A DNA stretch of 64,000 bases from Thiobacillus thioparus DSM 505 (GTDB taxonomy: Bacteria > Pseudomonadota > Gammaproteobacteria > Burkholderiales > Thiobacillaceae). Position numbers and translations under genes: made by a program. Position 1 is the stretch's first letter. Each line of letters starts with the position of its first letter. This document shows positions 46,866 to 62,723 of this stretch, piece after piece. The DNA is taken from positions 1 to 64,000 of the forward strand of contig NZ_KB891328.1 of assembly GCF_000373385.1 (NCBI RefSeq), written 5' to 3'. The notes under the pieces were generated by a model. The model worked only from the letters and a program-made list of their open reading frames with translations. It was not told the DNA's origin and did no database searches.

Positions 46866-47255
46866 ATGTCGCACTATCATGCAGTTGTCTGGCTCGATCA
46901 CAACGAGGCGCGTGTCATGCACGTCAGCCCGGACGATGTCGAGAAATCGGTGATCCATCCCGTCAACCCGCCGCGCCATCTGCAGCGCAAGCGTGGCTCG
47001 GTCAGCGGCAGCCGCCAGCCCGAGGACCAGCAGTACTACCACGATGTCGTGGAGGCCTTGAGCGGCGCCGCGGAAATCCTGATCGTCGGGCCGGGGCATG
47101 CCAAGCTCGAACTCATCAAGCACATCCATGCGCACGATCATGACGTCGTGCAAAAAGTTGTGGGAGTCGAAACCGTCGATCATCCCGGCGATGGCCAACT
47201 CGTGGCCTTTGCCCGCAAGTACTTTGTGGCAAAAGACAGGATGCTGTCGCAATAA
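46866..47255 (+). CDS. Small conserved protein of the bacterial eRF1/Pelota-like (translational machinery-associated) type
   Basis: The 129-residue protein starts MSHYHAVVWLDHNEARVM and contains SGAAEILIVGPGHAKLELIKHI and VVGVETVDHPGDGQLVAFARKYF. This matches the small proteins often annotated as translational-machinery proteins, thought to be related to the eRF1 domain 2-3 fold with a GPG-like segment. Its biochemical function is not known. A hairpin GCCCCC-GAAA-GGGGGC (47291-47306) without a good T-run follows and could end its transcript. Confidence 0.72.
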   Translation: MSHYHAVVWLDHNEARVMHVSPDDVEKSVIHPVNPPRHLQRKRGSVSGSRQPEDQQYYHDVVEALSGAAEILIVGPGHAKLELIKHIHAHDHDVVQKVVGVETVDHPGDGQLVAFARKYFVAKDRMLSQ

Positions 47256-47388
47256 GGCTGTCGGAAAGCTGTTTACTGCACCGTTACCGGGCCCCCGAAA
47301 GGGGGCTTCGTCGTTCATGGGCCAGGCTGTGGGTGACTGTTTTTCTCAACCGGCTGATAAATAGGGGAATTATTTTAGGCGCTCGTCC

Positions 47389-47415
47389 TAAAGTCTGCCG
47401 ATATTTCGTCGTTAC
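47389..47415 (+). promoter_or_regulatory. Weak candidate sigma-28-type promoter before the riboswitch
   Basis: TAAAGTCT (47389-47396), an 11-base spacer and GTCGTTAC (47408-47415) match TAAAGTTT-N11-GCCGATAA at seven and five of eight positions. The predicted start near 47422 fits the 5' end of the aptamer. No convincing sigma-70 promoter is seen instead, but the -10 match is weak. Confidence 0.3.
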
Positions 47416-47427
47416 TGTAGATAAGTC

Positions 47428-47515
47428 GTACAAGGGCAAACCCGTCGCGAGGCGGGGACGCAAAGCCTCCGGTCTGGTTCGGGCTGCATCCGGGTCAAGA
47501 TAGCGGGGCTGCCAG
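47428..47515 (+). promoter_or_regulatory. Cyclic di-GMP-I (GEMM-I) riboswitch
   Basis: The conserved aptamer core is complete: AAGGGCAAACC (47432-47442), a stem CCCGTC/GGCGGG closed by a GCGA GNRA tetraloop, GGGACGCAAAGCC (47455-47467), the CCGGTCT segment and the 3' ATAGCGGGGCTGCC. It closely parallels the Vibrio Vc2 aptamer. The base that distinguishes c-di-GMP aptamers from the cGAMP variant appears to be G (47435), so c-di-GMP is the expected ligand. About 60 bases separate it from the small secreted-peptide ORF, with no strong terminator between, which suggests control of translation or a weak alternative fold. Confidence 0.9.
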
Positions 47516-47577
47516 ATTTCAAGTTGATGGCATGCGGCGTTGCCCGATTCAGGTGCAGTGTTGAACCAGGAGGTCCT

Positions 47578-47796
47578 ATGTCGCATCAATGCCCGTTCCC
47601 CGTCCGCTCCACCGACAATCGCCGTTGCTACCGAACAGGCAGTGCACCGGGATTCGTCCTGTGCCTGGCTGTGGCGGCCGCCCTCTCATGCTATGCCGGA
47701 TTCAGCCATGCCGCGCCGATCCACGCACTCCAGGCGGGGGGTTCCGGCGCCGTACTCGCCCTCGGCCATCCGGCCGGCCCGATCGCCGGAGGCTGA
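47578..47796 (+). CDS. Small secreted peptide under riboswitch control
   Basis: ATG 47578 has a perfect AGGAGG site (47568-47573) and gives 72 residues. After a basic, Cys-containing N-region (about 1-25) comes a hydrophobic stretch FVLCLAVAAALSCYAGFSHAAP ending in an AxA-like signal-peptidase site, leaving about 25-30 mature residues, rich in Gly and Ala with two His (IHALQAGGSGAVLALGHP). I do not recognise the family. It is the only ORF between the riboswitch and an intrinsic terminator (47827), so the unit is monocistronic. Function is unknown; matrix, signal or surface peptide roles would fit c-di-GMP control. Confidence 0.75.
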   Translation: MSHQCPFPVRSTDNRRCYRTGSAPGFVLCLAVAAALSCYAGFSHAAPIHALQAGGSGAVLALGHPAGPIAGG

Positions 47797-47826
47797 CCGG
47801 GCCATACGCTTTGCTCTGCAGAAGCC

Positions 47827-47849
47827 AGCGCCCTTCGGGGCGCTTTTTT
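47827..47849 (+). terminator. Intrinsic terminator of the riboswitch peptide unit
   Basis: AGCGCCC (47827-47833) pairs with GGGCGCT (47838-47844) around a TTCG tetraloop, followed by six T. The T-run also supplies the stop codon of the converging FMN reductase. Confidence 0.9.
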
Positions 47850-48429
47850 ATGGCCGGTCTGCCGTGCGCGCGAGCGCCGTCGTGGTCTTCACCAGTTCCA
47901 CCACCAGCGTGTGCAGTCGTGCAGGCGATTTCAGCGCCCCGTTCTCAGGGTCGAATGCGGCGTCGGCGTGGGCCAGCGAGAACTGGCCGGGCAGCACCAG
48001 CACGCCCAGTGTATTGAGGACCTGGCGCAGGTGCGGCAGCATGCGCATGCCGCCGAAGGTGCCGGGCGTGGCAGCAAGGATGGCGGCGACCTTGTTCTGG
48101 TAGGGCACCAGGCCCGATTCGCCCTGCCATTCGCGCGACACCCAGTCGAGCGTGTTTTTCAGCAGCGGCGGCATCGAGCTGTTGTATTCCGGGCTGGCGA
48201 TCAGCAGGGCATCGTGTTCCTTGAACAAGGCCTTCAAGCGCTGTGCATTGTCTGGCAGGCCGTCGCGTTCCTCAAGGTCGCCGTTATAGAGCGGCAGCGG
48301 ATAATCGGCCAGGTCGATCAGGGTGACGTCGCCGCCCGCGGCACGGGTCGCGTCCACCGCAACCCGGATGAGTTTCCGGTTCCAGGACTCGCGGCGGATG
48401 CTGCCGGAAAAAGCGAGAATCTTGGGCAT
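47848..48429 (-). CDS. NADPH-dependent FMN reductase family protein
   Basis: The 193-residue flavodoxin-fold protein has the FMN phosphate loop SGSIRRESWNRKL and the family's IASPEYNSSMPPLLKNTLDWVSR segment. Members reduce quinones, azo dyes or chromate with NAD(P)H in vitro. ATG 48429 (MPKILAFSG) is chosen over 48447. It is next to pirin on the same strand and converges with the secreted peptide. Confidence 0.92.
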   Translation of the reverse strand: MPKILAFSGSIRRESWNRKLIRVAVDATRAAGGDVTLIDLADYPLPLYNGDLEERDGLPDNAQRLKALFKEHDALLIASPEYNSSMPPLLKNTLDWVSREWQGESGLVPYQNKVAAILAATPGTFGGMRMLPHLRQVLNTLGVLVLPGQFSLAHADAAFDPENGALKSPARLHTLVVELVKTTTALARTADRP

Positions 48430-48498
48430 GACATGTCCTTGCATCAAAAAGTGAGTGATTGTATCGGGGCCGGCCAGGTGGTCGAAGCCCCGAGGGGG

Positions 48499-62622: not shown

Positions 62623-62723
62623 GTGGCGGGCCTCCCCGCATGGCTAAGTTGTGAATCGGGTCAGGTCCGGAAGGAAGCAGCCACAGCGACCGATGCCAGT
62701 GCCGGGGTTCTGGCTCGCCACCC
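62623..62723 (+). ncRNA. ffs: 4.5S signal recognition particle RNA
   Basis: The strictly conserved domain IV text GTCAGGTCCGGAAGGAAGCA (62660-62679) is present with its paired flank CAGCGACCGATGCCAG. The outer strands GTGGCGGGCC (62623) and GGCTCGCCAC (62712-62721) pair, one pair being G-U. A TAAAAT at 62613-62618 fits as -10 element. The RNA binds Ffh and targets membrane proteins. dnaX is downstream, a common neighbour. Confidence 0.96.

Follow-up and report, generated by a model that had tools for sequence, protein, structure and literature searches.

In Clostridioides difficile, the excerpted text of one study (PMC11477304) places the secreted protease PPEP-1/ZmpI under a class-I c-di-GMP riboswitch and small hypothetical proteins of 58 aa under riboswitches of the same class, and a table in it has five lone small proteins behind class-I c-di-GMP switches. 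Since both are reported there, at least in these excerpts, neither the intact arrangement described below nor a small riboswitch target is unheard of. An initial sequence-only reading of the present locus had called a lone small target unusual; the five C. difficile proteins are a precedent for it (PMC11477304, same excerpts). Among the matches listed from the open-licence literature, none was a paper on this locus or arrangement.

The locus lies in a contig of Thiobacillus thioparus DSM 505, and "the window" below means the whole 64,000-nucleotide stretch that was analysed. The gene order is acetate-CoA ligase (acs), a 129-aa gene, the slot of interest, an FMN reductase family gene, pirin and lysR; at some of the loci compared, the flanks of the slot were only partly found or fetched. 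The ORF in the slot is probably a deletion relict of a protease gene, one that is translated and whose leader is kept by selection. The features are as follows.

46866-47255, + strand: conserved 129-aa gene of the slot (no Pfam match)
47426..47517, + strand: class-I c-di-GMP riboswitch aptamer (RF03167, 62.6 bits; RF01051, 64.3 bits)
47518..47567, + strand: linker from aptamer to ribosome-binding site, a possible expression platform (predicted fold)
47568..47573, + strand: AGGAGG Shine-Dalgarno site (sequence)
47578..47718, + strand: 47-codon leader with a conserved n-region and a signal-peptide-like hydrophobic stretch, a homologue of a secreted S8 protease's leader (profile A1 match, omega)
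47719..47796, + strand: 25-codon unconserved tail and stop codon, read earlier as the mature peptide (omega, codon variation)
47827..47849, + strand: rho-independent terminator, probably from the deleted protease gene (hairpin and T run)
47848-48447, - strand: FMN reductase family gene, next after the ORF (family name tested by search)

The architecture first read from the letters is complete: the AGGAGG site, a single ORF of 72 codons and a stop (47578-47796), the start resembling a signal peptide and the terminator are all present. The start looks like a signal peptide as read from the sequence, with a basic stretch, the hydrophobic stretch FVLCLAVAAALSCYAGF and then SHA-A. The ORF is indeed monocistronic, as had been claimed, because the adjoining FMN reductase gene (47848-48447) is on the opposite strand, and the unit of riboswitch, ORF and terminator is short (~420 bases). 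The terminator hairpin has 7 pairs (47827-47844) followed by a T run; the interval 47200-47900 holds two terminator-like sites vs 0.6 (sd 0.8) in shuffles, the second at 47310-47337, and a consensus scan of its + strand found no sigma-70-type promoter. The 129-aa gene (46866-47255) is without a Pfam match, and its NCBIfam match to pelota is sub-threshold at 18.6 bits (cut-off 177.65). The window also contains a 5S rRNA gene (85-198) and a bacterial small SRP RNA gene (62625-62722).

The GEMM-I aptamer previously placed at 47428-47515 is real. Its ends lie at most 2 bases from those of the match to RF03167 (c-di-GMP-I-GGC) at 47426-47517 (+), which scores 62.6 bits in a cmscan of the whole window (gathering score 59, E 2.1e-12). 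The covariance-model search proposed along with it, against RF01051 (c-di-GMP-I), returned 64.3 bits at 47425-47516, above the cut-off of 35. No other Rfam family reaches its own cut-off at the aptamer/ORF unit. The ligand-contact blocks GGGC, CGCAAAG and GCC have the expected letters, and G15-G17, A43 and C93-C94 (numbering of the aligned window piece) do not vary in any of the 15 aptamer rows; these we take, in identity and numbering, to be the ligand-contact bases (G, A, C) of c-di-GMP-I. RF03167 has the consensus GACGCGAAG vs GACGCAAAG in the window, with A in place of G, and all 15 aligned aptamer rows (window included) have this A. The position is presumably the ligand-stacking base of the Vc2 structure, and the name GGC would refer, going by the RF03167 consensus, to a G instead of an A at the central contact. 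A ligand-altered "GGC" variant is ruled out, as the distinguishing G is absent despite the score above cut-off, and because that base is A the window aptamer reads as an ordinary c-di-GMP-I aptamer. The leader ORF is presumably controlled by c-di-GMP. The genome has one further credible copy in total, a second class-I c-di-GMP aptamer at contig 1:386540 (L050:2540-2631; 56.1 bits to RF03167, 50.5 to RF01051) upstream of a DUF1631 protein (PF07793, 1.1e-149); three additional matches in the genome search with RF03167 all score below 18 bits.

The 72-aa protein was searched against 60 related genomes (E up to 0.1). Matches were found in 35 of them, those beyond the genus being weak (E of at least 0.0026). 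The strong matches in G007, G010, G011, G017, G026 and G030 cover the first 49-58 residues only, and their frames continue to 572-663 residues. The G017 copy contains Peptidase_S8 (1e-52), a Fervidolysin_NPro-like prodomain and Ig-like domains (Big_7 and Big_13); the remaining protease copies align with it at 65-87%, and complete slot proteases have 605-617 residues. Both the protease form and the short form occupy one and the same slot, from the acs side to the FMN reductase side. The window leader matches the leader profile A1 at E 8.9e-31, partly by construction since it is row 1 of that profile; independently of the profile, the best 14 non-self matches listed show 56-93% identity over 47-72 residues. 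Judged by this homology, the first ~47 residues of the ORF represent the leader of a secreted protease of the subtilisin family, ~600 residues long. The "unrecognised" micropeptide is to that extent recognised, its N-terminus being a protease leader that has the same slot and aptamer in 13/56 congeners. The 72-aa product itself has no Pfam match at E up to 0.01, so no S8 catalytic domain, and no S8 domain was found in the window's genome at E up to 0.001. In congeners the start codon, the ribosome site and the leader all recur, with a purine-rich, mostly AGGAG-like site upstream of the leader in the related loci shown. The conservation expected for the ORF start is borne out by these elements and fails for the tail, which differs between lineages; the homology search recovers the ORF's leader behind the same aptamer, in 13/56 genomes as that of the secreted protease.

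Profile A1 was then run on 56 genomes of the genus Thiobacillus (E up to 0.01) and matched in 37, of which 34 have the match in the slot after removal of three off-slot matches. A protease follows in 13/56 (G007, G010, G011, G017, G023, G026, G030, G035, G061, G070, G071, G073 and G077), and a search with the mature protease (E up to 1e-30) returned the same 13; in G023 and G026 the contig ends within the gene, and in G035 A1 misses the leader of the protease itself, which has diverged too far, and matched a second, short copy instead. In 4/56 (G003, G012, G014 and G021) the protease is broken and fragments of it remain. The leader with a short tail only, as in the window's genome, was found in 17/56 (G000, G005, G008, G015, G016, G020, G028, G029, G031, G032, G034, G060, G062, G069, G075, G076 and G078); 16 of these 17 keep the leader frame open to its end, the exception being G031 with a stop at codon 44, and in G076 the A1 match begins only at position 8. 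With the gathering score of either RF03167 or RF01051 as the limit, an aptamer is present at 13/13 protease loci, 4/4 broken loci and 12/17 leader-only loci, and at that score it is absent from G020, G032, G029, G069 and G031. In 22 genomes the slot is without a leader, and the FMN-reductase side was fetched for 18 of them (G001, G004, G018 and G027 were left out). The 129-aa gene lies at most 120 bases from the FMN reductase in 10/18, a PEP-CTERM-like motif lies in the slot in 3/18 (G006, G013 and G024), and 5/18 (G002, G064, G065, G066 and G079) are uninformative or cut. The leader is dispensable, because it is missing from the slot in these other genomes.

Of the three off-slot matches, the one in G024 (G024:C1, E 0.0075, positions 7-27) lies elsewhere than the slot and was discarded as chance. 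The other two, G019:C34 (L084) and G033:C77 (L085), have a leader of the type MPRQxEFPV..NRDCYRSGPSP.. heading a distinct, unrelated protein of ~280 aa. No aptamer was found near these proteins. For the G019 protein, Pfam and NCBIfam give nothing at E up to 1; compared directly with the window leader, it shows 49% over 45 aa (E 5.6e-7). Across 399 genomes of the order, A1 matched in five, including the window's own and one congener. Outside the genus, G364 (L112), from another family of the order, carries a leader-protease, the protease recognised by eye, with its own aptamer at 64.5 bits; the unit is therefore older than the genus or has moved. The matches in G277 (E 3.4e-5, weak, within a 235-aa frame of other make-up) and G100 (weak, 13 profile positions only) were taken as chance.

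Comparison of the two forms in the slot indicates how the short one arose. Their frames part directly after the leader; all 16 leader-only frames shown end before any GWAKGRLLVAPR-like prodomain motif, and the tails that follow the 47-residue leader are 11-37 residues long and differ between lineages in sequence and length. A GC hairpin and T run of the window type lies soon 3' of the protease stop at 8 of the 10 complete protease loci shown, G070 and G077 also having TGCTCTGCAG ahead of the hairpin in common with the window. In G010, G030, G061 and G073 the hairpin belongs to the protease gene, because the FMN reductase is 0.9-1.5 kb from it; G007 has a different hairpin after the protease, and G071 has none in the stretch shown. 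Hairpins of this type are common, so the likeness counts as support and no more; on it the window terminator is probably that of the deleted protease gene. A tree of flanking genes (47 genomes, quick method, 9/47 rows under half filled) requires 10 or more changes between intact and non-intact protease, 8 of them forced by starred branches; the protease label on it is barely more clustered than chance (86/500 shuffles as low). In the leader tree, leader-only rows are interspersed with protease rows and form no single group, with 16 of its 32 inner branches open. Repeated loss of the protease is the simplest reading, and at some loci the protease may have been gained by transfer. The ancestral unit would have been a c-di-GMP-I riboswitch and a secreted subtilisin-family protease with leader, prodomain, S8 domain and Ig-like domains. 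By slot comparison, the common ancestor of the window's clade would have lost the coding region by deletion, from about the prodomain through the end. The upstream region, the aptamer and the ribosome site would have stayed, together with the 47-residue leader, a short tail and, probably, the terminator.

Codon models were fitted with free branch lengths and kappa fixed at 2.9, to leaders that are short (47 codons). In the four species of the window's clade (G000, G005, G016 and G060) the leader has omega 0.076 (LRT 14.0, p 1.8e-4) and the tail 0.60, which is not different from 1 (p 0.26). The varying leader codons are 2 amino-acid-changing and 7 silent of 47, and those of the tail 12 amino-acid-changing and 5 silent of 25; with 7/9 varying leader codons silent, the constraint on the leader is on its amino acids. 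The truncation predates the split of the four species, because they have the 25-codon tail and its stop in common. A second group, G008 and G028, has its own shared tail of 15 codons under mild constraint (omega 0.20, p 0.046) and a leader omega of 0.092 (LRT 14.5, p 1.4e-4). For comparison, omega is 0.02-0.06 in flanking genes, and in the leaders of two pairs with an intact protease it is 0.05 and 0.12. The leader of the broken pair G012/G021 is near 0 (LRT 4.7, few changes), that of G030_T/G061_T 0.31 (LRT 3.5) and that of G003 vs G007 0.60 (LRT 0.7), 1 not being rejected in these last two. A fit with branch lengths tied to the nucleotide tree (omega 0.055, 2dlnL 59.7) was set aside as over-optimistic because its lengths derive from the same data. 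The leader appears to be selected as a protein in two truncated groups, the window's included, and not demonstrably in all; some other shortened copies look relaxed. In these fits selection is on the leader and not on the "Gly/Ala-rich mature peptide": the active peptide of about 25-30 residues proposed earlier falls in the tail, which is near neutral in the window's clade (omega 0.60) and unconserved between lineages.

The likeliest alternative is that the ORF is a decaying, functionless pseudogene of the protease, its leader conserved in appearance only because the loss was recent. Broken intermediates exist, the leader too is lost in some genomes, the window's clade has a near-neutral tail, the aptamer is below gathering score at 5/17 leader-only loci, and omega 1 is not rejected for the leaders of G003 vs G007 and of G030_T/G061_T. 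A dead remnant is nevertheless unlikely: omega of 0.08-0.09 rejects 1 in two groups whose truncation is older than their split, silent changes have built up in the leader while the tail next to it altered its amino acid at 12/25 codons in the first group, and the frame stays open through 16/17 leader-only leaders. It is very improbable that the ORF is a micropeptide gene in its own right, with a secreted mature part of ~25 residues that acts as a signal, surface or matrix peptide. Protease and short gene occur together in G030, G061 and G035, so the two are compatible, and the G008/G028 tail is mildly constrained; but tails vary between lineages and are near neutral in the window's clade, some (G069 and G030_T) resemble the protease's linker by eye, and the leader tree (half of whose inner branches are open) mixes leader-only rows with protease rows, for which reasons a separate micropeptide family was disfavoured. 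These second short leader ORFs lie downstream of the intact protease in the same slot in G030 (L055), G061 (L072) and G035 (L058); in G030 and G035 a PEP-CTERM protein stands between the two, and the G035 second copy has its own aptamer. That the riboswitch-ORF-terminator transcript is itself the product, a small RNA with an incidental ORF, is hardly credible: the short monocistronic unit with aptamer and terminator would suit it, but the leader evolves as protein-coding sequence, in which silent changes are tolerated and amino-acid changes are not, and no further Rfam family reaches cut-off there.

Under the preferred reading of a translated protease relict, purifying selection would maintain the leader, going by the statistics in two species groups that share a truncation, in which case the product most likely works through the leader. 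This product would be a basic, Cys/Pro-containing n-region with a signal sequence that inserts into the membrane, its synthesis permitted by the riboswitch; the peptide would be targeted to the membrane and either stay there or be cut by signal peptidase. We tentatively suggest that the leader, free-standing after repeated protease loss, with its conserved Cys/Pro/Arg n-region and membrane segment, is a c-di-GMP-dependent membrane or signalling peptide in which the tail is irrelevant, a proposal that we hold to be possible rather than probable. That the leader also stands at the head of the ~280-residue protein of G019 and G033 is consistent with a transferable functional module. As for the switch, the predicted fold of the window pairs AGGAGG with the aptamer's GCCUCC (z -1.59, 10/200 shuffles fold as well). 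This ribosome-site/aptamer pairing is predicted in 4/4 members of the window's clade (0.75-1.00 vs 0.20-0.37 with shuffled aptamers) and does not exceed 0.18 in any of the remaining 20 of the 24 loci folded; with the aptamer locked, the ribosome site is predicted to be merely 0.33-0.39 free. A conserved expression platform was rejected, the pairing being confined to the window's clade among the 24 folded loci, and because of the low values in 20/24 no common switching mechanism can be claimed. For the window's clade only, our guess from these folds is a translational ON switch, in which c-di-GMP binding might free the ribosome site.

On the preferred reading, what the genus offers is a series from intact riboswitch-protease through broken protease and leader-only gene to empty slot, and not a new micropeptide. 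If the leader does work without its enzyme, this would be a natural case of a signal sequence turned into its own gene with built-in c-di-GMP control. There is also a warning in it: a signal peptide with a short tail behind a riboswitch may be a truncation product, and catalogues of small ORFs should therefore check the syntenic slot in relatives.

Compared with riboswitches of the RF01051 and RF03167 families, the window element is alike in that both models match above cut-off and that it lies upstream of the gene of a putatively exported product; it differs in that its target is a leader-only relict. In enterococci, peptide pheromones are cut from lipoprotein signal peptides. They would be the model if the signal peptide itself, and not the mature part, is active here; neither a receptor nor a lipobox was seen here, however, and a pheromone-like release is an analogy only. 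The 58-aa proteins of C. difficile resemble the window ORF, as they are described in the excerpts cited at the outset, in being small riboswitch targets without a conserved domain; the likeness drawn is one of description, and an origin from a protease leader is shown for the Thiobacillus locus alone. The nearest parallel to the intact relatives in the same excerpts is PPEP-1/ZmpI, since they too have a class-I switch before a secreted protease, but PPEP-1 is a metalloprotease, whereas that of the relatives here is an S8 subtilase, whose enzyme part is gone in the window.
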